DNA from: Leeuwenhoekiella parthenopeia
GTDB taxonomy: Bacteria; Bacteroidota; Bacteroidia; Flavobacteriales; Flavobacteriaceae
DNA: 64,000 bases
Direction: 5' to 3'
NCBI RefSeq assembly: GCF_020782115.1
Contig: NZ_JAJGMW010000009.1
Span: 93,085 to 157,084, forward strand
Below the pieces are notes generated by a model that was not told the DNA's origin, made no database searches, and was given only the letters and a program-made list of their open reading frames with translations. This document shows positions 43,922 through 58,483 of the stretch, piece after piece. A program made the position numbers and the translations under genes. The first letter of the stretch is position 1, and each line of letters opens with the position of its first letter.

Positions 43922-43995
43922 GGCCTCGTGGCGCAACTGAATAGCGCATCTGATTACGGCTCAGAAGGTTCCAGGTTTGAATCCTGGCGAGGTCA
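43922..43995 (+). tRNA. tRNA-Arg (anticodon ACG)
   Basis: Acceptor arm GGCCTCG pairs with CGAGGTC (one G-U), discriminator A. Anticodon stem TCTGA / TCAGA encloses the loop TTACGGC, anticodon ACG. T-arm CCAGG / CCTGG with loop TTTGAAT. 74 bases, CCA not encoded. The integrase gene of the accessory island lies just downstream, so the tRNA 3' end is the probable attachment site; I do not see a second copy of that end inside the window. Confidence 0.95.
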
Positions 43996-44020
43996 CAGCT
44001 AGTCTTAATAAAGACACACA

Positions 44021-44053
44021 AAAACCACGTATTTTTATTAAATACGTGGTTTT
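44021..44053 (+). terminator. Hairpin terminator after tRNA-Arg
   Basis: 14-bp stem AAAACCACGTATTT / AAATACGTGGTTTT with a five-base loop, 25 bases after the tRNA. A-rich on one side and T-rich on the other, so possibly bidirectional. Confidence 0.8.
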
Positions 44054-44099
44054 CAAGTTTTTAGGGCATCATTAAATTTGAAGTGATTTCAGCTTAAAT

Positions 44100-44145
44100 G
44101 GTAGCTATTTGGTAGCTCAAAACGAAAATGGTAGCGATTGCTACC
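44100..44145. repeat. GGTAGC repeats, possible integrase arm or att sites
   Basis: GGTAGC occurs at 44100-44105, 44111-44116 and 44130-44135, and its inverse GCTACC at 44140-44145, all within 46 bases between the tRNA and the integrase gene. Short clustered direct and inverted repeats of this kind are typical of arm-type binding sites of tyrosine integrases; the role here is inferred. Confidence 0.45.
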
Positions 44146-44229
44146 ACGCATAGAACCGGTACTCTACCCCGTTTTGATAAAATTGGATTTGACTTTCGTA
44201 ACAATCAAGTTTAATTTAAATCAAATGTT

Positions 44230-45498
44230 ATGCGAACCACAAAAACATTCTCTATTCAGTTTTGGGCTGATACCCGAAAGGCTTCACAAGGTGAGGCACT
44301 CGTGTATGCCCGAATCACCATGGATCAAAAGAGACTCAGTGTTAGTCTGAAACGAAAAGTGCCCATTGAACTCTGGGATAGCCAAAATAAACGGGTCTTG
44401 GGGAACTCACTTATGGCTAAACAACTGAATCAATACCTCGATCTGGCCAAATCTCAATTGTACCAAAGTTATCTGGAGTTGAAAGCAGCAGATAAGATGC
44501 TTACCACTCAAATGATCAAGGATTATTTTATGGGAGAAGACACCAGCAGTAAAACACTTATTTACCTGCTGGATTATCACAACCAAAAAATCAACGGTAC
44601 ACTTGCCCGGGGAACGATCAAAAATTTCAAAATCACTGAGGGCTATGTTCGAAAATTCTTAAAAGCGAACAAGCATAAGGATATTTACCTTTCCCGATTG
44701 AATTACAAATTTATTTGTGATTTTGAGAGCTTCCTATTCCAGTACTATCCAGAAGGTCATCCCAGAGCGATGAGCCATAATACGGTGATGAAACACATTC
44801 AACGCCTGCGAAAAATAATACGCCTGGCGTATCAGTTAGAGTGGCTTGATAAAGATCCCTTTAGACGCTGGAAGACTACTTTTGAAAAAACCGAGCGCGA
44901 ATTTCTTTCTGAAAATGAATTAGCCAATGTAGCCAGTTATGAGTTTACCAATGAGCGCCTGGAACGCGTGCGCGATCTGTTCCTGTTTAGTTGCTATACC
45001 GGAATCAGTTATGCTGATCTGGTCAATTTAACGCCCAAAAACATTTGGTTGGGTGACGACTCCAAAAAGTGGATTGTAACCAACAGACAAAAAACAAACA
45101 CCCGCGTAAAGGTTCCCTTAATGCCTGCTGCATCAGATCTTCTTGAAAAGTATGAAGATCATCCCATGTCTCAGGTTTCAGGAACCTTGTTTCCTCCTAT
45201 TACCAATGAGCGGGCTAACCTATATCTAAAGGATATTGCAGAGGCCTGTGGGCTAACCAAAAACCTGACCTTTCATATGGCCCGGCATACCTTTGCCACT
45301 ACAGTGACACTAAGTAATGGGATGCCCATAGAGACCGTATCTAAACTACTGGGTCATACCAAAATTGCAACGACACAGATTTACGCACGGATTTTAGACA
45401 AAAAAGTAGAAGAAGATATGTACAAACTTCAGGAAGTTTTGCAATCTAAAAATACAGTACCAAAACGACCTAGCCCTAATTTGAAAATCATAAGATAA
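44230..45498 (+). CDS. Tyrosine recombinase / integrase of the CTnDOT-type
   Basis: 422 residues. N-terminal arm-binding domain (RITMDQKRLSVSLKRKVPIELWDSQNKRV), SAM-like core-binding domain (SHNTVMKHIQRLRKIIRLAYQLEWL), then the catalytic domain with HMARHTFAT (His-x-x-Arg), LLGHTKIATTQIYARI (His and the Tyr nucleophile). The place where the first catalytic Arg is normal reads CYTGISYADL, with Ser instead of Arg, as I recall for the CTnDOT integrase. Located 235 bases after tRNA-Arg with its C-terminus away from it; defines the left edge of a mobile or once-mobile island. Conjugation genes are not in the window. Confidence 0.9.
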   Translation: MRTTKTFSIQFWADTRKASQGEALVYARITMDQKRLSVSLKRKVPIELWDSQNKRVLGNSLMAKQLNQYLDLAKSQLYQSYLELKAADKMLTTQMIKDYFMGEDTSSKTLIYLLDYHNQKINGTLARGTIKNFKITEGYVRKFLKANKHKDIYLSRLNYKFICDFESFLFQYYPEGHPRAMSHNTVMKHIQRLRKIIRLAYQLEWLDKDPFRRWKTTFEKTEREFLSENELANVASYEFTNERLERVRDLFLFSCYTGISYADLVNLTPKNIWLGDDSKKWIVTNRQKTNTRVKVPLMPAASDLLEKYEDHPMSQVSGTLFPPITNERANLYLKDIAEACGLTKNLTFHMARHTFATTVTLSNGMPIETVSKLLGHTKIATTQIYARILDKKVEEDMYKLQEVLQSKNTVPKRPSPNLKIIR

Positions 45499-45837: not shown

Positions 45838-47799
45838 TGGATTATTTTACTTTGTAATCTTAATTTTAGGGATGATTCGCAGGGTTGTCATACTGCATCC
45901 GATGTAGCCTGAGGTTGTGAATTGCTTTAGCTGCGCTGAACCTCAGAGTTTGGCCGCAGTATATTTTTGGGGTAGATTGCGAGCAATGTGTTTTTTAAAA
46001 CTGAAGGCTGTTATTTAAGGTTGCAGAATCCTATTTTAGAGGATGATTTACAGGGTTGTGACAACAAAAAAACCACGCTTCCGGTTTGTGAATTGCTTTC
46101 AGAATCCTATTTTAGAGGATGATTCACAGGTCAATCTCATTAAAACCTTACTCTAATGGCGTTGTGAATTGCTTTCAGAATACTAATTTTAGTGAGGATT
46201 CACAGGATGCATTATGTGTTGTGGAAGGTCTCCCGGGTTGTGAATTGCTTTCAGAATCCTAATTTTAGGGATGATTCACAGGGGTAGTTTTTTAAAGGCC
46301 CGGACCAGTTTAGTTGTGAATTGCTTTCAGAATCCTAATTTTAGGGATGATTCACAGGATCTTTAGTTGAAGGGGATTTGGTCACTTTGTTGTGAATTGC
46401 TTTCAGAATCCTAATTTTAGGGATGATTCACAGGTTGTCCTGATCTTTTTTAATCTCAATATGCGTTGTGAATTGCTTTCAGAATCCTAATTTTAGGGAT
46501 GATTCACAGGCAGAAATGCTCTACCCCTTTTTGCTCATCAGTTGTGAATTGCTTTCAGAATCCTAATTTTAGGGATGATTCACAGGGAGTGACACAGATG
46601 GATGAAGAGGAGTATGGTTGTGAATTGCTTTCAGAATCCTAATTTTAGGGATGATTCACAGGACTTAGACAGTCGGTCATATAGGGTACAAAGTTGTGAA
46701 TTGCTTTCAGAATCCTAATTTTAGGGATGATTCACAGGGCGATGATCGTGCAAAAGCCATCATCAAAGGTTGTGAATTGCTTTCAGAATCCTAATTTTAG
46801 GGATGATTCACAGGATTGCATTGTCAATATGGTAGCTATAATCAGTTGTGAATTGCTTTCAGAATCCTAATTTTAGGGATGATTCACAGGAAGAAAACGC
46901 CGCCGGTCTTAAGGCTGCCGGTTGTGAATTGCTTTCAGAATCCTAATTTTAGGGATGATTCACAGGAAAGCTGCGCGGTAGATGACTACAACGCGGTTGT
47001 GAATTGCTTTCAGAATCCTAATTTTAGGGATGATTCACAGGATTCGGTTATATCGCCGCCGTGACGGTCTGTTGTGAATTGCTTTCAGAATCCTAATTTT
47101 AGGGATGATTCACAGGAAACGATTGTATGCAATGTGTGGCAGTGATGTTGTGAATTGCTTTCAGAATCCTAATTTTAGGGATGATTCACAGGAAATAGCT
47201 ATTACAGGGCGTATTGATTATAGTTGTGAATTGCTTTCAGAATCCTAATTTTAGGGATGATTCACAGGACAAAGTTCAATCACTACTATAAACGTAGGGT
47301 TGTGAATTGCTTTCAGAATCCTAATTTTAGGGATGATTCACAGGGGCAATCAGTTTATTTACAAATTGCTTTCTGTTGTGAATTGCTTTCAGAATCCTAA
47401 TTTTAGGGATGATTCACAGGCTGTGTGCTGCACGTATGCCGTAAACTATAGTTGTGAATTGCTTTCAGAATCCTAATTTTAGGGATGATTCACAGGCTAT
47501 TTAAAAATGTGGGCCTTTTGCCCTAAGTTGTGAATTGCTTTCAGAATCCTAATTTTAGGGATGATTCAAAGGGTATGTATCTTTTTTCTACCGGAACCTG
47601 CTGTTGTGAATTGCTTTCAGAATCCTAATTTTAGGGATGATTCACAGGGTACCAGTAACAGTTACCTGTTAGTTTAAAGTTGTGAATTGCTTTCAGAATC
47701 CTAATTTTAGGGATGATTCACAGGGCTGTACTCATTTTTAATAGTTTTGGTTAGTTGTGAATTGCTTTCAGAATCCTAATTTTAGGGATGATTCACAGG
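45838..47799 (+). CRISPR. Type II-C CRISPR array, 46-nt repeats, ~30-nt spacers
   Basis: The repeat is 46 nt, starts GTTGTGAATTGCTTTCAGAA and ends GATGATTCACAGG, with the two ends complementary (TGTGAAT / ATTCACA). Repeats start every 76 nt (sometimes 75): 46085, 46161, 46237 and so on to 47754, i.e. 23 regular repeats. The 46085 and 46161 copies carry substitutions, and 47527 has one base changed near its 3' end (TTCAAAGG). Two more degraded repeats lie to the left: one at 45838-45883 whose 5' half is lost, and one split between 45914-45928 and 46024-46054. Decay on the left marks the old end, so new spacers enter on the right beside cas2. The plus-strand orientation is the one whose repeat 5' half pairs with the tracrRNA found at 53578-53597. 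Confidence 0.98.
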
Positions 47800-47907
47800 A
47801 TACCCGGCGTAAAAACCTGGTATCCTGTTTTTTATGGTATTTTTTAGAAATAAAAAAATAGTCTTTATCAAAAGGTCTCGACTGCGCTCGACCTGACATT
47901 TTCATTT
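47800..47907. promoter_or_regulatory. Putative leader between array and cas2
   Basis: AT-rich 60 bases next to the youngest repeat (47830-47875, with runs of T and A), followed by an inverted element GGTCTCGACTGCGCTCGACC at 47872-47891, a kind of sequence often scattered in flavobacterial intergenic DNA. As the array grows at this end, this should contain the adaptation leader. Confidence 0.5.
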
Positions 47908-48279
<372 letters not shown>

Positions 48280-48310
48280 TTATCGACCACCTGATTATAT
48301 GCTACAGCCA

Positions 48311-49210
48311 TCAGCTAAAATCAGGATATAAAATCTTTCGGCTATTGCCAAGAAAACAGTCATATAAGCTGCTGGTGGTACGGCTCATCGCCACCATTAG
48401 CGGACTTTGCTTACCATCAATAACAACATCCATGGCCGGTATGGTGAGCAATACGGCTTTTAAATCCATCGTCAATTCTTCCAGGTCTTCACCGGCTCGA
48501 ACCATTTCATAAACCAGGCTATCTACATAAGGCCTGTAGGGTTCCATCACATCATCGGCCAGGCAAAAGGCATTGTATTTGTTTTTATGAAAAATACCTA
48601 CCGAAGGAAGCATCCCGCTACTCACCAAAGCCCGGGCGGTTACAGCCCGTAAAATGGCATACCCGTAATTCAACAGATTATTTGGAGGGACCCCTTTTTG
48701 ATTCCGGCTAAAACCGGGGACTTCTTCAAACAGGTTTTGGAAATAATAAGCAGCAGCTATAGCCTCATGATTTATTGTATCCCCACTTTTGACCTCCGTG
48801 GCCCATCGCTCCAGTTTTAGGCTATTTTTGCGGTGCAAACGCAAATGAGCGGCCTGGTTGCCGATTTTGGTCTGTACCGTCTGTTGCCATAGGTTTTTCT
48901 TAAGCGGTACACTGGCATTGAGCTGATGCTTGATACGTTCGGTCTGTTCGCTATGGCCCACCAGCGGTTGTAAAAAAGAGCAGGGTAGGTGCTGTTTGTC
49001 GCAGGTAATTACGGCAGTTTTATTTTGAACCAGCTTCATCAAGAGTCCGTTTGTGATGGTGATCTGGGAATCCTCAAGCACGATATAGCCTAAATCTTCG
49101 ATGGGGATGGTCGCCTCCTTCTTGTCTTCCTGCGGAAAGTTTACCACCAATTGTTCATTGCGGGTACTTAAATAGGCCGGGTTGCCGAAAAAGAGGGTGC
49201 GTTTAATCAT
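48311..49210 (-). CDS. cas1: CRISPR-associated integrase Cas1 (type II)
   Basis: 299 residues. N-terminal beta domain (RTLFFGNPAYLSTRNEQLVV, TIPIEDLGYIVLEDSQITI), then the helical catalytic domain with LNYGYAILRAVTARALVSSG (Glu-region), GIFHKNKYNAFCLADDVMEPYRPYVD (His and Asp). Type II-sized and with the type II motif order. Overlaps the end of cas9 by eight bases, so translationally coupled. Confidence 0.95.
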   Translation of the reverse strand: MIKRTLFFGNPAYLSTRNEQLVVNFPQEDKKEATIPIEDLGYIVLEDSQITITNGLLMKLVQNKTAVITCDKQHLPCSFLQPLVGHSEQTERIKHQLNASVPLKKNLWQQTVQTKIGNQAAHLRLHRKNSLKLERWATEVKSGDTINHEAIAAAYYFQNLFEEVPGFSRNQKGVPPNNLLNYGYAILRAVTARALVSSGMLPSVGIFHKNKYNAFCLADDVMEPYRPYVDSLVYEMVRAGEDLEELTMDLKAVLLTIPAMDVVIDGKQSPLMVAMSRTTSSLYDCFLGNSRKILYPDFS

Positions 49211-52200
49211 TCTTTAAATTTATTTTGCCTAAAATAGAAACCTCAAAGTCTATCCCTTCATAAAGAAAATTCCAGCTTTCTGAGGTATTCAATTTGAGTA
49301 AAGGGGTTTCGCCTTCTACTTCTATAGTTGATGCGACTTTTTTGAATTTGTCCATTTCAGTTTTTATTTCTACAGCTTTTTCTTTACCTACAGTTCTGAC
49401 AAGTCTTTCCATTCTGAAATCATCCCAGCTATTCATTTTGAATTTCCGTCTTTGAAAATCTTCATTTCGACTTTTGATATCATCGATAGACAAATCCTCA
49501 ACGACTTTAGGTAAACCTAAATCCTTTTCATAGCTCCAAAGTAATTCGTCCTTTTTCTCCTTAACCAAATCATCTAAATCGTTGTCAGCAGTAGCTGTCA
49601 AATGATATTTGAGCCAAAGGCTCCCATTATCAATTTTAGAGATTTTATATAGTCTGTTTTTTTGAAATTTTAAGTCGTGTCGTTTTTCGTATTCTGAATC
49701 ATTATTTAGCACGATAAGATTTTGTCCTACTTTCAATAAGAGTTTTTTGTATTCCGATTTTTCAGGATAATATTTAGAAACAAAGAAATCGATATCAAAC
49801 TTCCTTTTTTCCCTAAAAACTTCCGCAATTTGGTAGGCGTGAACTTGAAGTAATTGTCTTTGATTACTATTTGGTTCAAACAGCATTATACCATAAGGAA
49901 TAGAGCCACTTTCTGCATAATAAAAGTTCTTGTAGTCTTTATCGCTTCGAAAGTCTATTCTTTCTTTTACCTGCTTGCCTGCTTTTTTCTTTATACGAAC
50001 GTGCCTTATGGCATTTCCCTGCCAATCCTTGATAGTTTTGCTGCCAAGTTGCTTTTCAATTAGTTTAGCCAGTGCAGGATCGACGATATCGTTTAGATTG
50101 GATTTATTGATCTTTTCGATGGGCTCGCGCTTTACATAAATAAATTCTTCATCTCCCTCTTTGTAAAGCCAGTCGGAATTATCCTCGTTTCGCTTTGGCC
50201 CGCCATCTTCATAACGCTCTACATCCCTGATTTTCCCCAAGAAAGAATCTTTAAATAGGGTAGCCCGGATGGTATCGCCTTGTGCTATTTTGGCATCATA
50301 CACAATATTTTGACCATTACGCTTCAAAATCTTCTTATTGCCATCTTCATCGACCTTAGGTTGAATCTTACCTGCCTTCCGCACTTTTTTAAATGTCTGT
50401 GTGGTCACATTATCTTTTGTGTAGTTATACACCAATGTCTCATTTTCAACCGCCCTTTTTACTTTTTGGACATCGAAATCTGAATGGGGTGTATAGCTCA
50501 ATTGTTTTCCTGATTCATCCTTGAATTTGTACATTTTCTTGACCAGCTTGTCCCTTCTTGACGCATTGGATGGGATATATGTGAGTACTGCGGCGTCAAT
50601 GGTGTGATGTGTATGCTTTGCTCTATCCTTTGGGTTGTCTTTATCTTCAAGACCGAGCATTTTTCGGAATTCTGCGGTCACGCGACCTTTTTGGACGCTT
50701 ACTCTATTAAAATAGGTTTTGAGGAACTCTCTTGCATATTTGCTGATGTTTTGCGTATCGGTTAGCTGGCGTTTTGCTCTTTTATCACTTACATCTTCCC
50801 AAGTGAACCTCTCTGCCTTTTCTTTCCAATAGTCAAAGTGCATTTTAAAGAAATGTTTATCCTGTATTCGTGTATTTTTTGTTTTTTCATCTTCTACACC
50901 TTTTGGCTTTTGTCTTGATTCAAATGCAATTTTAAACCCGTCCCTTATATTTTCCCATTGTTTCAATCTAGGCGCAATGGCGGTTCCTATTCCCTCAACA
51001 TCCTTTTCAAAATTGGGCAGGTGCAACGGAAATTCAGTTTTCTTGATATTAGTGTTGTAATGCTGAAAAGCAACGGTTTGGTTTGCCAATGTGTTATCGG
51101 GTAGGATTTTTCTAGGTATGGTATGCTCAATATTGATTGCGGTTGAAAAAAGCTGACTTATGGCGATCATCTTACCAGTGTACATACATTGCCCCTTTTG
51201 CTCCATCCAGAGTTCATAGCGTTTGATCGCATTGTTTTCTTTCAGTATGTCCTTTCGGTCGAGATTTTTTTGGGAATTGCCTTTTTCGTCTTTGGTTTCT
51301 TGAAAAACCTGCTCGTCCCATAATTCAAACTGATGGATGCTTTCTTCCACATTTAATGTTGGCTTTTCCTTGGTTTTATAATCCTGTAGAAACTCACGGA
51401 TTTTATTTCGCTTTGACTCCCGCTGTTTTTGAAATTTCTCAATGGCAATGCGTTTATTGTTATCGTTCAAATCACGGGCGATTTCAACCACGACTTCCGT
51501 ATCCTTATCAATTTTTCCTTCGATGATGAGCTGGTTCACTAATTTTCGAAGCACACTCATTGCCTTATTGAACATTGGGTTTTTGATGGAATTGGTTTGC
51601 GACAACGGCAATATCTCCATATCGGTATCTCTATACTTTATCGGTGAACCATAAATATTCTCTCGGTTGGAATGATGGTATAGGGGCTTATTGAGGTGTA
51701 TCTCATTTTCAACAAGTTTGTTTTCAAAAATATCCTGAAGGTTTTCCAATTTTCTAAAGGCTCTATGGGAATCATAGAAGAATTCTTGGTACTCAAGGCC
51801 CACTTGATTGATTAATTCTTCTTTATTCTCAAATCTCTTCCATTTCTGCTCACCAAAATGATTGCTGCAAGCCTGTTCAACAGCATTTTTATCGGAATCC
51901 TTAAGTGTGTAGCTGAAATCTTTATGAGCAAAAAGATGATTTTCTTCACCATTGTTAAAAGCCTCTACTTCGCCTTTGTATTTTTCTATGAGACTGTTTA
52001 CAATGGTAATAATCCTCTTTCTTTCTCTGTAAACTTTATTGGCCTCATCTAAAAAGGAAACTATCTTATCCTTGTTTTTTTCAAATTCATCACCTAGAGC
52101 TTCAGGAATATTTGCTAAAAGAACCGCATCATTGTATAAATAGCCATCCTTTAAAAGCGGAATGATTTTCCTTAATACGTACTGACTCAGATTACCGTAA

Positions 52201-53552
52201 CCTTGGGGTAAGTTATTCTTTATGATAACCAATGGCGAAACTTCGGAGGATTCACCTTTACTTTTTTTGATGATGGGCTGTAGTTGAAGCTTTTCACTTC
52301 CAAATTTCGCAAGAGCGTCCTCATCAAACTCAGTTGTATTATGCCAAATATCCAACACGGAGTATCCAAAATAATTTTTTGGCATTGTACTGATGGTGTA
52401 TTGCTCGATCTGGGTCAAATCTTGTTTTGCCGTGTCACCAAAAAGTTTTATAATGCTTTTGCAAAAAGGCATACCGGCAATAGTGGTTTCATACGTTTGC
52501 TTCTTGCTGTCTAAAGGATAGTTGTAAATTTTCTTTTTTCCATAAAAGCGGTCTACCGTTTTTCTTACGTCTTCAAATTTGAAATTTTTGTCTTTTTTAA
52601 GGAATACAGTCTCATATAATTTATTCCGATAAGTTTGTGGCAAAAATTCAAATTCATCATCCTCGCCTTTCTTTACTTTAATAGTATTGATGAATTGCCA
52701 TGCGCGTGATATTTCGAATAAGGGATGGGATATTGCACAACGTCTCTTTTTTGGCTCCAGAGTACATTTTCCAATTGTTCCTTTTTGCGTTTTCAAAGGT
52801 TGCTGCCAGATGATAGCTTTGTGTAAACCCCTTACAAATTCGTCTTCAAATTCTTTTTTTGTATTTTGCTTTAAAGAAAATCCCTGCTTCCTCAGAATAT
52901 TTAGCAGCTCTTCTTCATATTCATCCCTGTATGGATAATTGTCTCTGGCCCTAATGTTTTTTTCTAGATATTCTTTTTGAAGTGCTTCTGCAATTGTTCT
53001 ATGACTGGCAAGTGCCTCTTGAAAACCACTTTCCTTTCTCCTTTCAATCTGTTTTTTGGTCTCTTTATTGGTTTCGCCAATATCCTTAAAACCTCGTCGT
53101 TGGACAAGGTGATATAATGCCCTGCCCAATTCCATTGGTGTCAACTTCTCATCCAAAGCTTTTACTCGTAATTCGTATGGATTTTTATAATTACTTCCAT
53201 TGTTAAAACTAAAATTACAAGCGAGCCACTTTTTAAAATCTAGATTATCAGGAAAATTCTTTGACTTACCTTTTTTGTATTCTGACCAATTTTTGATTTC
53301 CTTTTCATCTAATGGAACCATTGAATGCCTTTTTAATTCATTAAGCAACAAAGTTTTACGATATTTTCTAGCTTTGATAGGATTTCTTTTTAATCTTGCT
53401 TCACGCCTATCTTTAGTTGGAGAAGAATAGCCAGATGTTCCTTTAACCATCCCTGAATTAAAAATTATGGAACCAAAATCTATAATTTCTTCTTGTTCTC
53501 GTAAGAACCACCCCAAAGAGGAAGAGCCTAAATCCAACCCTAGTTTTTTCAT
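49203..53552 (-). CDS. cas9: CRISPR effector nuclease Cas9 (type II-C)
   Basis: 1449 residues, in the size class of Bacteroidota II-C Cas9. RuvC-I at the start: LGLDLGSSSLGW with Asp7. An arginine-rich bridge region follows (KDRREARLKRNPIKARKYRK). RuvC-II VVVEIARDLND at about residue 687, HNH INIEHTIPRKILPDNTLANQ around residue 808 with the catalytic His, and RuvC-III HHTIDAAVLTYI around residue 985. All catalytic residues I can check are present, so it should be an active nuclease guided by crRNA:tracrRNA. The ~460-residue C-terminal part would contain the PAM-interacting domain. No csn2 or cas4, as expected for II-C. Confidence 0.98.
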   Translation of the reverse strand: MKKLGLDLGSSSLGWFLREQEEIIDFGSIIFNSGMVKGTSGYSSPTKDRREARLKRNPIKARKYRKTLLLNELKRHSMVPLDEKEIKNWSEYKKGKSKNFPDNLDFKKWLACNFSFNNGSNYKNPYELRVKALDEKLTPMELGRALYHLVQRRGFKDIGETNKETKKQIERRKESGFQEALASHRTIAEALQKEYLEKNIRARDNYPYRDEYEEELLNILRKQGFSLKQNTKKEFEDEFVRGLHKAIIWQQPLKTQKGTIGKCTLEPKKRRCAISHPLFEISRAWQFINTIKVKKGEDDEFEFLPQTYRNKLYETVFLKKDKNFKFEDVRKTVDRFYGKKKIYNYPLDSKKQTYETTIAGMPFCKSIIKLFGDTAKQDLTQIEQYTISTMPKNYFGYSVLDIWHNTTEFDEDALAKFGSEKLQLQPIIKKSKGESSEVSPLVIIKNNLPQGYGNLSQYVLRKIIPLLKDGYLYNDAVLLANIPEALGDEFEKNKDKIVSFLDEANKVYRERKRIITIVNSLIEKYKGEVEAFNNGEENHLFAHKDFSYTLKDSDKNAVEQACSNHFGEQKWKRFENKEELINQVGLEYQEFFYDSHRAFRKLENLQDIFENKLVENEIHLNKPLYHHSNRENIYGSPIKYRDTDMEILPLSQTNSIKNPMFNKAMSVLRKLVNQLIIEGKIDKDTEVVVEIARDLNDNNKRIAIEKFQKQRESKRNKIREFLQDYKTKEKPTLNVEESIHQFELWDEQVFQETKDEKGNSQKNLDRKDILKENNAIKRYELWMEQKGQCMYTGKMIAISQLFSTAINIEHTIPRKILPDNTLANQTVAFQHYNTNIKKTEFPLHLPNFEKDVEGIGTAIAPRLKQWENIRDGFKIAFESRQKPKGVEDEKTKNTRIQDKHFFKMHFDYWKEKAERFTWEDVSDKRAKRQLTDTQNISKYAREFLKTYFNRVSVQKGRVTAEFRKMLGLEDKDNPKDRAKHTHHTIDAAVLTYIPSNASRRDKLVKKMYKFKDESGKQLSYTPHSDFDVQKVKRAVENETLVYNYTKDNVTTQTFKKVRKAGKIQPKVDEDGNKKILKRNGQNIVYDAKIAQGDTIRATLFKDSFLGKIRDVERYEDGGPKRNEDNSDWLYKEGDEEFIYVKREPIEKINKSNLNDIVDPALAKLIEKQLGSKTIKDWQGNAIRHVRIKKKAGKQVKERIDFRSDKDYKNFYYAESGSIPYGIMLFEPNSNQRQLLQVHAYQIAEVFREKRKFDIDFFVSKYYPEKSEYKKLLLKVGQNLIVLNNDSEYEKRHDLKFQKNRLYKISKIDNGSLWLKYHLTATADNDLDDLVKEKKDELLWSYEKDLGLPKVVEDLSIDDIKSRNEDFQRRKFKMNSWDDFRMERLVRTVGKEKAVEIKTEMDKFKKVASTIEVEGETPLLKLNTSESWNFLYEGIDFEVSILGKINLKND

Positions 53553-53703: not shown

Positions 53704-54746
53704 AACAGTTATTTAGGAGGATTTGTTTTTGAAAATGATTCTCTTTTCCATATTTAAACACTAAAAATCCCTAAAACAAATGATTTAGGTAAGGGGAATA
53801 AACCCCATTTCCCTCCATTCCGCCAAAAGCTTCATTTCAGGAAAAGAGGTTTATCCCAAAATCTTGAACCCAATCCTGAAAAAGGATTGCGTTCGCCTGA
53901 TCCTGCTGACTTCAAGTTTGCGTTTTTCCTTGAAACCTTTTTACCAACTTCAAACCGGTAGTTCAACATCCTGCACAGCACCCGTTTCCTTTTCGTTTAA
54001 GAACTAAAATTTAGCCGGAGCCGCTTTGCATAATCAGGCTCACTTCGGCCCTGCTCCCTGCAGGCCCTTGTCGCACTTTTTATAAAAGCTCTTTCTTGCT
54101 AAATTTTAAAAAGTGGTAGGGTCGAAAAGGAAACGCGATGGCGCTATGGGAAGTAAATGGAATTGCATTTGGGATTGTATTTTTCGTTGGCCTGATACTA
54201 AAATACCCGGTAGTTGATGCGTTCTGCGCTGATATGTACAGTAAGAAAAACGCTCCGGATATAATAAGTAAATGGGTTTGCTTCTCATTTAATTTGCAGG
54301 CATTTGCAATCAAAATTAATGGGAATTTTTTATCTAAATTGGAGTGGAAAAAGTAGCATTTTGGGGAGCGAAGCGAAGGAAAATGTATAGCAAGAGGGTA
54401 ACACGCTGCGCGATGTTATGGGATACATTTTCTGGGTCAAGTTGCTGATAATCATATTATTACGATTTATCGTAGTTGATTGATCTTCAGAGTTTTGCGA
54501 CAAAAGCGATGCGAGCCCTTAGTTTTAGTGAAGATTTTGCGACAAATCGATCTAATCTGCTAGCGTTGCAAGGCTGAAGACTTGTTTTAAAAACCAAAGT
54601 ATTCTCAAATTTTGATGATTAATTTCAAACGATACCTAGGGTTATAATGAACTGGATAAAAGCAGACTTGAAAACCGGGATGGAAGGGATTTCTAAGTAT
54701 TTGCGTTTACCATTCACTCGTGTACGTTTTACAAGCTTTTGCATGT
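53704..54746. other. Non-coding stretch between tracrRNA and dCas12f guide region
   Basis: About 1 kb with no convincing gene. Two overlapping open frames at 54080-54356 are antisense to each other and neither resembles a known protein. Small features: AATCCTGAAAAAGGATT hairpin at 53872-53888 and a 12-base direct repeat TTTTGCGACAAA at 54493-54504 and 54535-54546. The region looks like degraded mobile DNA. Confidence 0.4.
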
Positions 54747-54890
54747 TTATGTCGTTTATCTGTTCCTAACAATTCCTTTTTACTTAATCTTTAAGGGAAG
54801 GGTTGTATATGCTGCGTGCATTTAGTGAGTGCAATTAAGATACCTCACCTTACGGGTGTACAAGCACCCTCTATTTACGTTTAAAATTCA
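54747..54890 (-). ncRNA. Candidate guide RNA of the dCas12f-sigma system
   Basis: Minus-strand sequence starting ~45 bases after the dCas12f-like stop codon. It contains GGGTG-CTTGTA-CACCC (54854-54869), then GTAAGGTGAGGTATC, and CTCAC (54825-54829) able to pair with the GTGAG in that segment (54844-54848). This order (GGGnTGCTTG hairpin, UAAG, then a GAG-type helix closed by CUC) is the core of Cas12f tracrRNA scaffolds as I remember them. Downstream CTTAA-AGA-TTAAG hairpin and AAAAGGAATTGTTAG mimic the repeat:anti-repeat fold ending in GGAAUGCAAC before the guide of Cas12f. The guide would then be about 20 nt at 54747-54766. Ends are inferred. Confidence 0.6.
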
Positions 54891-54934
54891 AAAGTTTTCA
54901 GTTCAACGTTATCTTCCAGATTATGTACAAAAAC

Positions 54935-56035
54935 CTAACCTATCACTAGCTCAATTCCTGCTTTTTTGGCTTTGTATTCTATTTTCTTAGTTAATTCATA
55001 ATAATTCCAGTTTCTAAGCACAAAACCTTCTTGCTGAGCAGCCTCGATCCAGGCTTCCTGATTGAGCAGAATCAAGGTACCGGCCTGTTGTTTAATACAA
55101 AAATCAATAAGCTTTCGGCTGTATACATGCAAGCGGTTACTTACATAGTTTTTTTCCAGTTCGTAAAATGTTTTGACTGCTTTTGTTTTGCGTTTAAAGC
55201 CTTTTCCGGGTCTGCAGTAGGTTGCCCCGCTTTGAGCCCTTTTCTGGGAGGCCTGCAGCGCCAGCCTTCTATATAGAAATTCTTCCCTGTTGCCAATAGA
55301 AAGTGTAGCTTTCCCTGATTTCACAGTAATTGGGTATTCCAGAGATAAAGAAGCTTCCGCAATTACTTCCGGTTTTAGACAATGCTTTTCTTTTTGAAAT
55401 TCAAAGGTGGCTAACCAATAAATTTTTTGTTTCTTCAATTGGATTCTGGAAGTACATAGTTTGATTTTTCCTGCGACTAACTGTTCCAGCAATTTTCGTT
55501 TATCGGTATAATCTTTCCCTAGATAGGTTTTTAAAGGAATGGAAAACAAACGAAAACAAAATGCTTTTTGCTCTTCATTATAGGACAAGCCATGAATGGC
55601 TACCGGACCAAAAGGGAAGGCAATATTCTTCTTGAAATTGGCAAGGGAGCGTTCTCCCTTAGTATATTCAGGCAGGTTGTTTCGAAAGTTATTGATAATG
55701 GTATTGTTCAGGTTGGCTAAAATATTAGTAGGGATTTCCCCTTTAAAACGATCAGATACCACCCGGTACGTGCAGTTTGTCCTAGACCGATTGAGGATGC
55801 CCTCTTCTGTTTTTTTTTCATCCGCTAACGTATAGCGTATTCCATCAGATAAATACAAGAATTCTTTGATTCGTTCCTGAATGTACAGATGTGAAATAAT
55901 GAGATTGGCCGCTCTAAAGCTTCGGTTCTGCCAGCGGTAGAGCGTGTCGTAGACCGCTGTTTTTTCTGCTTTGGTAGGGGCATCTACCTTGAGCTGGATC
56001 TTTCGGGTGAGTTTTATGGTTTCTTTTCCCATCAC
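54935..56035 (-). CDS. Nuclease-dead, C-terminally short Cas12f/TnpB-like RNA-guided protein
   Basis: 366 residues. The N-terminal half (LTRKIQLKVDAPTKAEKTAVYDTLYRW..) is the REC/WED type of small Cas12f/TnpB. The C-terminal half keeps the RuvC scaffold: EEFLYRRLALQASQKRAQ (251-268), YVSNRLHVYSRKLIDFCIKQQ (297-317), RNWNYYELTKKIEYKAKKAGIELV (341-364). Catalytic sites are lost: where GxDLG is expected there is IAEASLSL (225-232), no Asp; where the RuvC-II Glu is expected there is LILLNQE with Asn325; the protein stops at Gly366, before RuvC-III and the zinc finger. No frameshifted remainder follows. The start codon overlaps the stop of the sigma factor by one base. Expected role: guide-RNA-directed DNA binding without cleavage, recruiting the sigma factor. 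Confidence 0.85.
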   Translation of the reverse strand: MMGKETIKLTRKIQLKVDAPTKAEKTAVYDTLYRWQNRSFRAANLIISHLYIQERIKEFLYLSDGIRYTLADEKKTEEGILNRSRTNCTYRVVSDRFKGEIPTNILANLNNTIINNFRNNLPEYTKGERSLANFKKNIAFPFGPVAIHGLSYNEEQKAFCFRLFSIPLKTYLGKDYTDKRKLLEQLVAGKIKLCTSRIQLKKQKIYWLATFEFQKEKHCLKPEVIAEASLSLEYPITVKSGKATLSIGNREEFLYRRLALQASQKRAQSGATYCRPGKGFKRKTKAVKTFYELEKNYVSNRLHVYSRKLIDFCIKQQAGTLILLNQEAWIEAAQQEGFVLRNWNYYELTKKIEYKAKKAGIELVIG

Positions 56036-56829
56036 TAAGCTGATTGTTGCTCACCGTTTTTAAGCTGTACCCATTTATAGGCAGTCATAAATTCCTGATG
56101 CACTTCCTTTAGTGAACGGTTCAGTTCTGTAGCGATGGCATCAAAAGAATAGTGCTTTTCCATACGCAGTTGTAAGACTTTTTCCTGTTCCGGGGTCATA
56201 ATACCCTGAGTCTTTAGTGCCCGGATCGGTTTGGCCTTAGTATCGGACGTACATCCAGTACCAAGAATATTTTTAATATCTTCAATAGCCCCTTTTACTT
56301 CGATACTGGTTTTGGCGGTGCTGGTTCCCATTGCCTGAGCAATTTCTTTATACTGAAAGCCGTATTTTAAGCAGAGTTCTACCAGAAGCTTTCTTTTACT
56401 TTCCAGTAGAGGAAGTACCTTTTGAATCTGGTCTAAAGCCTTCTGATCTGCTTCCTGCTTTTGTAGGTGAGCATCTTCTACATCACTTTCATAGCCGCGT
56501 AAATAATCCTGATAATTCTCGAAATAATCCAGTCTGCTTAGGTTTCGCTGAAACGCATTCCGGGGCTTGCTATACTGGTAAATACACTCGCTTTTCATTA
56601 CAAAGTGAACGAACGCATGGAGATGTTCCGGGGATTGGATCCGCTCTCTTTTTTGCCATAAAATGAGAAAGGTATCCTGCAGGATATTTTCAACTGTATA
56701 GACATCCTTAAGTATGCTCCTGCCCATCCAGTAAACACTACGATGATACTTCCTGTAAATCGCTTCAAACGCGAGCGGACAGCCTTGTTTGAAGGCATCA
56801 TAGTTGGTATTAGGTTGAAATCGTTTCAT
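56035..56829 (-). CDS. ECF-type sigma factor with extra C-terminal helix-turn-helix, partner of dCas12f
   Basis: 264 residues, longer than the usual ~180-200. Sigma region 2 at about 15-85: LAFEAIYRKYHRSVYWMGRSI, VENILQDTFLILWQKRERI (the DAEDLVQEVF-type helix) and HAFVHFVMKSECI. Region 4 at about 130-190: VLPLLESKRKLLVELCLKYGFQYKEIAQAMGTST, with its HTH. A further segment at 210-255, MTPEQEKVLQLRMEKHYSFDAIATELNRSLKEVHQEF, looks like a second region-4-type HTH. No anti-sigma or FecR gene is adjacent, unlike typical PUL ECF sigmas; the neighbour is the dCas12f gene, sharing one base. Hence a sigma factor probably recruited by an RNA-guided protein rather than by its own promoter recognition. 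Confidence 0.85.
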   Translation of the reverse strand: MKRFQPNTNYDAFKQGCPLAFEAIYRKYHRSVYWMGRSILKDVYTVENILQDTFLILWQKRERIQSPEHLHAFVHFVMKSECIYQYSKPRNAFQRNLSRLDYFENYQDYLRGYESDVEDAHLQKQEADQKALDQIQKVLPLLESKRKLLVELCLKYGFQYKEIAQAMGTSTAKTSIEVKGAIEDIKNILGTGCTSDTKAKPIRALKTQGIMTPEQEKVLQLRMEKHYSFDAIATELNRSLKEVHQEFMTAYKWVQLKNGEQQSA

Positions 56830-56967
56830 AGACCAAGTCTTTTCTATTTCGTTTACATTCTATTCTTTTAAAGGTGTTTCGGTTTAGGCCGTTATTCTAG
56901 ACTCTATACCGGGCGAGGTATCGTTTTTTTAATACTTGACAGCTGTATTAAGTAACCAATCGTTTTA

Positions 56968-57072
56968 GTTAAGCTCATCCCTTCCCGCCGGATTCCAATC
57001 ACAACCGGGAAGGTTTATGAACTTAACAGCTTCTCTTTTTCGCAGACCCTAAGGTCTACAGCTCTTTTTTTA
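56968..57072 (+). ncRNA. Candidate structured RNA divergent from the sigma factor gene
   Basis: A long hairpin: GTTAAG-TCAT-CCTTCCCG on the left (56968-56987) pairs with CGGGAAGG-ATGA-CTTAAC on the right (57006-57027), 18 bp with small bulges. It is followed by a T tract, then by GCAGACC-CTAA-GGTCTAC and TTTTTTT (57041-57068), a good plus-strand terminator. No ORF. No clear promoter, although TTGAC occurs at 56936-56940. May be a small RNA or part of the sigma/dCas12f control region. Confidence 0.45.
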
Positions 57073-57083
57073 TGGCTAATTCA

Positions 57084-57230
57084 CCGGTGTGCTTAAACCT
57101 ACCCGGTATAAGCCCAGGCCGCTGTTAAAGCGGCGTTTCCCACCCAACTACAGGCTACCTTGTAGAGAGATACCCCATAACCCACGGGTGACTTAGCGGA
57201 TTATGACGTGTACCCGTAAACACGTGCTTT
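57084..57230 (+). other. Series of hairpins ending in a T tract
   Basis: GCCGCT / AGCGGC (57118-57134), CTACA / TGTAG (57148-57164) and ACGTGT / ACACGT (57206-57225) followed by GCTTTTTAT. The loop of the last hairpin contains ACCCGT (57212-57217), complementary to ACGGGT at 57184-57189, so a loop-to-upstream contact is possible. Looks like an RNA gene tail; class unknown. Confidence 0.3.
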
Positions 57231-57311
57231 TTATCCTCATCCCCCCGCCCTTCTCCCTAGGAGAAGGGAGCCTATCCCTAACTGGGAAGTTGCTTTTAGA
57301 TTAAGGATATG

Positions 57312-57356
57312 ATTCTTTAGCTTTCTTTTTCTTCAGTATAGCAAGAAGTTCCCGTT
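57312..57356 (+). repeat. 45-base direct repeat, copy 1
   Basis: ATTCTTTAGCTTTC..GAAGTTCCCGTT; the second copy at 57780-57824 differs by one base. Copies are 468 bases apart in the same orientation with unrelated flanks. Confidence 0.8.
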
Positions 57357-57779
57357 GTCCTCATCCCCAACCCTTCTCCCAAGGAAGGGTAAGCTTGTTC
57401 CTAACTCAACTTGAAACTTAACTACCGTCTATCCAACCCGAAGGGTTAAACGAATGCTCTCCCTCGGTTCAGAATAGTCCCGGAGCTCTACAAATCCCTT
57501 AATGAGATTTGCGGGTTCCGAACTTTAGAAGCAAGGTTCTTACCTTCTATGCTTGTATCTGTTCTTTTGTCTTGATACAAAAAGAACCAACCCGTCTAGT
57601 CAGCCGGGCAAGAAGATCAAGGCTGATTTTTACATCCTTGAAAACTACGCAAGCGCCTTATCGTGCGGATGGCAAACCGCTGCGCTAAGCCATCCTCCAC
57701 TGCCCATCGCTTCGGCGTTTGCTTGTTTTACTACAGATGTAAAAAATAGGCCGTTTCCAGAATTGGAACAAAGAATATC

Positions 57780-57824
57780 ATTCTTTAGCTTTCTTTTTCT
57801 TCAGTATAGCGAGAAGTTCCCGTT
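57780..57824 (+). repeat. 45-base direct repeat, copy 2
   Basis: One-mismatch copy of 57312-57356. Might come from a duplication of a gene end or mark the ends of an inserted segment. Confidence 0.8.
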
Positions 57825-58483
57825 AAAAATTTTCGAAGCCTTGGAGAAAATTTAGGGGACTTATTGCGGTTTTGCCCCTTAGGGCAAAAATACCTAAGAA
57901 AAAGGCTCCTTTCTTTTGGTTCGTTTTCTTTGGAGAAGCAAAGAAAATGAACAGAAAGCCCTTTAGAACCTAAAGTCATCATTAGACCAAACCAATTCTT
58001 TCGTTAGCTCAAGAAATTAAGAATATCACCTCGTGTAACTCATAGGCAAAATCACTTTAAAAAATTAAACTTTTCACCCCGTGTGGGATGACGGCCATTA
58101 TTGCCTTAATGATTGTGTAGGGGATTAAAAGGGGTGCGAAGCTTTATTAAGAAGAATACAAAGGCTTTGAAAGCTGAAGTAAAGGCCAAATACAAAAAGG
58201 CGCAGGTCTCAACTTATTGAACAGAGGTACTGGTATACCGTACAGCAATAAGCGAGAGCCCACGCCCGGGTCGTGAGCATCCCTGCTTATCCTCTCGCTG
58301 TTCAAAAATTACCAGTTTTCTGTTCGAGATTCAAAGCGAATGCTTCTAATATGTTATGCTAAGAAGTTTCGCAAATATATAATTATGAGGTAAATATAAT
58401 AATAAAAACCAAATGGTATGATATATCATGCCATTTTTATTTAAATTATATGTCAACTTAGTCAAATACTGTTAGATTAAGCA

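Follow-up and report, generated by a model that had tools for sequence, protein, structure and literature searches.

The window (the whole stretch of 64,000 nucleotides of Leeuwenhoekiella parthenopeia DNA analysed here) carries on its minus strand genes for an ECF sigma factor and a nuclease-dead Cas12f (dCas12f), together with a guide-RNA scaffold and its guide, preceded by two leader elements that we call R2 and R1 (Table 1). The two reading frames, including the 366-residue Cas12f-like one, are present as a preliminary description of this DNA had given them.

Table 1 Features of the sigma-dCas12f locus (positions in the window).
Feature	Position	Strand	Remarks
ECF sigma factor gene, 264 aa	56035..56829	(-)	region 2, region 4, second C-terminal region-4-like match
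Nuclease-dead Cas12f (dCas12f) gene, 366 aa from GTG or 365 aa from conserved ATG	54935..56035	(-)	
Guide-RNA scaffold, three stems	54802..54871	(-)	covariation in 29 sequences
Guide CCTTCCCTTAAAGATTAA	54784..54801	(-)	only the first 7-11 bases resemble candidate targets
Probable remnant of a second guide RNA (scaffold 3' end and guide-like bases)	54710..54743	(-)	by eye
Inverted repeat R2 in the sigma leader	56968..57027	(-)	inner arms CCTTCCC..GGGAAGG at 56980-57013; candidate self-regulation site
Leader element R1 (nested hairpin, alternative terminator-like stem, T tract)	58192..58334	(-)	
Promoter-like start of R1, TTATATTTA..TATATATTTG	58366..58399	(-)	

In a PDB sequence search, residues 2-366 of the Cas12f-like protein matched 9n9c_A, 'Nuclease-deactivated Cas12f' (E = 2.5e-163), and the entries of that name matched by the protein were 9n9c, 9n9m, 9n9o and 9n9q; the best match of the sigma factor, over residues 9-257 of 264, was 9n9q_C, 'RpoE' (E = 3.3e-68). 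Entry 9n9q is common to both, its dCas12f chain and its RpoE chain matching the two proteins of the window. The ATG at 56030-56032, which is the codon after the GTG, lines up with the first residue of the solved homologue, and because the homologue begins there, the true dCas12f start is likely this ATG, 2 bases past the sigma stop (TAGTGATG at 56030-56037: sigma stop TAG, 2-base gap, ATG). The one-base overlap of stop and start codons in the preliminary description holds from the GTG, and becomes a two-base gap from the likely ATG.

The protein had also been said to lack both catalytic residues and the C-terminal end of the nuclease. The Asp column of RuvC-I is occupied by Ser229 in the window protein, and Asp is found there in none of 121 aligned proteins (the window protein and 120 homologues, chosen by their similarity to it), which confirms this part of the claim. 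The RuvC-II Glu is likely lost: in an alignment with the Cas12f 9nzr (129 bits in the PDB sequence search) 'LLNQE' of the window protein lies opposite the 'MERL' register, and since this gapped alignment fixes no exact RuvC-II register, the loss is likely rather than certain. The 508-residue 9nzr is aligned to position 416 and runs 92 residues beyond the end of the window protein, which is therefore missing RuvC-III and the zinc finger, as had been described. An AlphaFold2 prediction of dCas12f (mean pLDDT 59.7) was left out of the argument.

A scaffold resembling that of Cas12f had been noticed downstream on the same strand, and comparison upholds it: RNAalifold on 29 chosen scaffolds revealed three stems with 17 pairs, 8 of which show compensatory changes. 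Scaffolds were present in all 17 loci L002-L018 (the second system of the own genome, G000, together with loci named Leeuwenhoekiella, Salegentibacter, Zunongwangia, Chryseobacterium and kin), at one to six per locus, with a degenerate copy in L009. The first 18 bases of the window guide are kept in four orthologous loci except at one position. An Rfam search of the whole window at gathering level returned tRNA only. A sigma gene adjoins dCas12f in 21 of 22 dCas12f loci, the exception being L018, where the match spans only 74 residues. Together with the paired matches to 9n9q and the scaffold covariation, this adjacency bears out the assignment to a sigma, dead-Cas12f and guide kind of system; judged by its sequence, the system in the window truly belongs to the dCas12f-sigmaE RNA-guided transcription systems.

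Beside the sigma-dCas12f genes lies a type II CRISPR locus (46021-53552), comprising at least 24 repeats spaced 75-76 bases apart (46021-47802), Cas2-like (47908-48255) and Cas1-like (48311-49210) genes named by eye, and a Cas9 gene (49203-53552) with HNH and RuvC-III matches. We considered this array as that of dCas12f and rejected it, as the direct-repeat search places it with Cas9 and the Cas1/Cas2-like genes. A tRNA gene followed by a tyrosine-recombinase-like reading frame (44230-45498, by eye) occupies 43922-45498, and the CRISPR and dCas12f genes may both belong to an integrated island.

The genome of the window encodes a second dCas12f of 61% identity with its own sigma factor and six guide units in tandem, each with a different guide (L002:2675-3513); the guide remnant in the window resembles, by eye, the sixth of these units. 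The protein was found at E <= 1e-60 in 12 of 299 sampled genomes of the family, a sample that includes G000, and its distribution is therefore patchy. Several loci look decayed or altered: the dCas12f of G277 (L186), which is among the 12, has two internal stops, L110 (G002 C5) has R1 and then a shortened sigma gene without dCas12f, L219 (G032) retains a 52-residue dCas12f fragment, and the dCas12f of L017 changes frame.

The preliminary description had proposed a search of the whole genome for a guide match of 18-20 bases upstream of a gene. G000 contains no full-length guide match besides the guide gene, the next best carrying 2 mismatches in 18. When long matches to the guides were sought in G000 and four relatives, only scattered sites came up apart from guide genes; among 17 guide-match places that were read, 5 were guide genes and 12 lay in or against coding frames, L045 excepted. 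A guide search inside the loci with a 10-base seed recovered, besides the guides, a few short stretches, part of them within dCas12f.

Guides of the window type (CCTTCCC...) resemble the 5' arm of R2. In the SusC leader on contig C1, CCTTCCC forms the 5' arm of R2, 77 bp before the start codon, and G000 has three R2 sites in all: before SusC on C1, before SusC on C19, and in the window's own sigma leader. Both SusC operons have R2 at 77 bp and encode, besides SusC and SusD, an M16 or S9 family peptidase, a content that suggests peptide uptake. The earlier expectation that the target is elsewhere, plausibly a transport operon, is thus matched by operons on other contigs that carry a guide-like site. 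Searching nine genomes for the pattern CCTTCCC, 12-32 bases, GGGAAGG yielded 16 sites in seven genomes, and none in the two Chryseobacterium genomes among the nine. Eleven sites precede SusC, 73-85 bp ahead of the start codon, and four precede a window-type sigma gene by 99-248 bp; the sixteenth (G011 C23) is without the conserved loop. The reversed pattern, used as a control, gave no site in eight of the nine genomes and one per strand in G004. The base preceding CCTTCCC is G at 9 and A at 2 of the 11 SusC sites, and A at all 4 sigma sites. R2 has no T tract.

The window guide shares 7 contiguous bases with its two SusC sites (9-10 of 11), scoring 10/13 at one (reached by 49 of 1000 shuffles) and 9/13 at the other (153 of 1000), and its own target match taken alone is not significant. 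In the own sigma leader just 7 bases of R2 match the guide, the orthologue L004 reading CCTTCAC, and the best 13-base match there falls outside R2. The case for targeting rests on the fixed position of R2 and on stronger matches in relatives. When type-B guides were compared with 12 SusC leaders of their own genomes, the summed best match was 126, against 100.1 for shuffled guides (sd 2.4, maximum 108), and the best match was the R2 sense arm in 11 of the 12 leaders; guide starts were set by hand, one guide each of L007 and L008, unlike CCTTCCC, was omitted, and the SusC leaders are homologous, so the sum is not equivalent to 12 independent tests. In the strongest single cases, the guide of G011 matches its leader at 13/13, and guide 3 of G111, a genome fetched after R2 had been defined, matches at 15/16 in its own genome, including the variable bases GCG.

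R1, an element of 141 positions, lies some 1.4 kb ahead of the sigma gene, and its promoter-like start resembles the Bacteroidota housekeeping promoter. Its nested hairpin has 32 pairs, 7 with compensatory changes among 13 sequences (z = -3.25 for the window copy). The 3' arm of this hairpin can alternatively pair with a CCACGCC-like tail, followed by the T tract, and of 33 distinct copies, 32 form this terminator-like stem with no fewer than 6 pairs. Pairings of each copy's own arm and tail exceeded all of 2000 swaps (19.68 vs 18.10, sd 0.29, maximum 19.36), and the predicted fold is attenuator-like. In a search of 56830-58480 against Rfam, even a threshold of E = 5 brought no convincing match to R1 or R2. 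Two copies of a short repeat like 'cctcatcccc..cccttctccc' lie at 57230-57400, in the interval that separates R1 from the sigma gene, and similar stretches occur in SusC leader L105.

R1 was found in 43 of the 49 loci given to its model. G000 has at least three copies, in both sigma leaders and in the C1 SusC leader (150 of 1630 candidates scored). Among the matches listed from a search for the R1 hallmark with 0-1 mismatch, 8 further loci were scored by the model and none was positive; L100 and L103, weak matches, were set aside. In protein-bearing genomes, R1 copies whose downstream genes were read precede sigma-dCas12f genes (without dCas12f in L110) or SusC operons, and copies L063, L190, L193 and L213 have no sigma-dCas12f or SusC gene within the stretch examined. 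R1 occurs in all 11 genomes with the protein and in 7 of 30 sampled without it, one of the 7 having a 52-residue fragment. In these protein-free genomes it precedes SusC in some and different genes in others; copies L191, L207, L217 (G030) and L205 (G033) stand before small reading frames or a response-regulator-like one (by eye), not SusC. R2-like dyads also occur in some R1-bearing genomes without the protein. Leaders of both types are therefore not made by dCas12f only, and guided initiation may be a layer added to them, or the protein may often have been lost.

Guides of the GCGTGGGCTCTCTTATT type match the terminator arm of R1, often at 13-15/16, in leaders of sigma-dCas12f and SusC operons. 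When at most one mismatch is allowed, the pattern GGCGTGGGYTYYTTT occurs at 26 places in five Chryseobacterium-group genomes. Nine are without mismatch, and all 8 readable ones are guide genes; the 17 that carry one mismatch divide into 5 R1 copies (L062, L063, L070, L071 and L074) and 12 places that are not R1. Two of these copies, L070 and L074, lie ahead of sigma genes, and two others, L062 and L071, ahead of SusC.

A later test comprised 15 guides from 10 of 13 loci, all 13 fetched after R1 had been defined and with a possible species overlap with earlier loci; L177, L183 and L186, which have no R1 in their stretch, and a second scaffold-like match in L188 were omitted. Seven of the 15 guides match the R1 arm of a sigma leader at 13-15/16, a score reached by 0-3 of 1000 shuffles, two of the seven (L179 and L187) being the same guide in one genome. 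Six of the other eight are unmatched, one is marginal (12/16, 34 of 1000 shuffles) and guide 3 of L185 matches outside R1 on the other strand. Seven SusC leaders in five later genomes are each matched at 13-15/16 by a guide of their own genome, six in R1 and one in R2; 10 guide-leader pairs were tried in total, of which 7 stood at 0-2 of 1000 shuffles and 3 failed. The guide of G277 matches well although its dCas12f has two internal stops. In G000, guides 1, 2, 3 and 5 of the second system have no good target among the three own R1 copies (by eye), and guide 6 has 11 bases in common with the SusC R1 of L142, in another genome, and fewer with its own. The second system of G000 is of the type whose relatives' guides match the distal leader R1 at the terminator-forming arm. 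The G before R1 sites is part of conserved R1 and therefore provides no independent evidence for a TAM.

The dCas12f-sigmaE systems are the subject of a 2025 preprint, in which they reportedly have SusC/D targets, G as the TAM and a start ~46 bp from it. A ternary complex is said to recruit RNA polymerase, with the start site set by distance. For the window, we put at roughly three in four the probability that the sigma factor, the RuvC-dead Cas12f and the guide form one complex. At sites similar to the first bases of the guide, this complex is predicted to initiate transcription of both SusC-SusD-peptidase operons, which lie on other contigs, and probably of the operon that encodes it. By homology, the guide would pair with the R2 DNA arm beside G or A, dCas12f would hold the R-loop, and the attached sigma factor would recruit RNA polymerase. 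A distance of ~46 bp from TAM to start would put the 5' end of the SusC mRNA ~30 bases ahead of the start codon, directly after the R2 hairpin. At R1, transcripts from guided initiation would begin past the first arm of the terminator, so that initiation would be blind to attenuation.

A wider proposal, which we advance tentatively and at somewhat worse than even odds, is that guides of this branch target the 5' arms of leader hairpins, the R1 attenuator terminator included, and that guided initiation just past the hairpin bypasses attenuation; the system would then act as a switch over an older SusC leader, and tandem guide units would add operons one at a time.

The same hairpins could be read at the level of RNA. 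As the guide sequence equals the 5' arm, guides are complementary to the 3' arm, and they might pair with that arm of the R1 terminator (or the R2 hairpin) in nascent RNA and prevent termination, with dCas12f serving as an RNA chaperone. The retention of the terminator-like stem in nearly every R1 copy, and the advantage of own arm/tail pairs over swaps, are in keeping with such a role, which nevertheless leaves unexplained the linked sigma factor, the fixed distance from R2 to the ATG and the protein's kinship with DNA-targeting proteins; R2, moreover, is without a T tract, and we regard this explanation as improbable. We hold it to be just as improbable that dead Cas12f is a road-block repressor like TldR, the sigma factor working at its own promoters. 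R1 has its own promoter-like start, so that a downstream block could repress, and nuclease-dead TnpB relatives act as repressors elsewhere, according to PMC13418256. Set against this are the position of R2 near the start codon, which fits initiation, the nearly constant adjacency of the sigma gene, and the closest solved relative, which shares its entry with RpoE.

Somewhat less improbable, but still unlikely, is that R1 and R2 serve a function of their own as leader elements, and that the guides resemble them through descent from leaders rather than through present targeting. R1 in protein-free genomes, the several unmatched guides and the guide remnant in the window would all fit such a history. 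Descent accounts poorly for G111 guide 3, which follows the variable bases of its own genome, and for guide 1 of G010, which has 12 bases in common with its SusC leader.

For a form of gene control that is itself very recent, these results supply a worked-out candidate regulon, in which a guide RNA appears to choose which SusC/SusD-peptidase uptake operons are turned on. The sites are named, and the short predicted pairing is open to base-by-base testing. If R1 is truly an attenuator skipped by guided initiation, one leader would combine two layers of control. The kind of system is itself known; the leaders R1 and R2 and the guide arrays may be new. Both leaders, the six-unit array of the paralogue and the candidate SusC-SusD-peptidase targets come from the present analysis. 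The matches listed from the open-licence literature included no paper on this system, which weighs little.

TldR proteins bring about repression, not activation, and are not known to have a partner sigma factor. The window system differs from them in its linked sigma gene, and no TnpB chain in the PDB is as near to its protein as the dCas12f chain; PMC13418256 describes TldRs as nuclease-dead TnpB-like repressors, and the likeness there lies in a dead RuvC protein used with a guide RNA for gene regulation. With type V-F CRISPR-Cas12f nucleases the window protein shares sequence kinship and a Cas12f-like guide, but it is without the catalytic Asp, RuvC-III and the zinc finger, i.e. without an intact RuvC nuclease. 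The closest likeness is to the dCas12f-sigmaE systems of 9n9c, 9n9m, 9n9o and 9n9q: the match spans all of dCas12f and nearly all of the sigma factor, at similar sizes; the catalytic Asp and the C-terminal end are missing in both; the sigma gene of the window, related to the solved RpoE partner, lies directly upstream; and a guide gene with a conserved scaffold, a predicted RNA, lies downstream.
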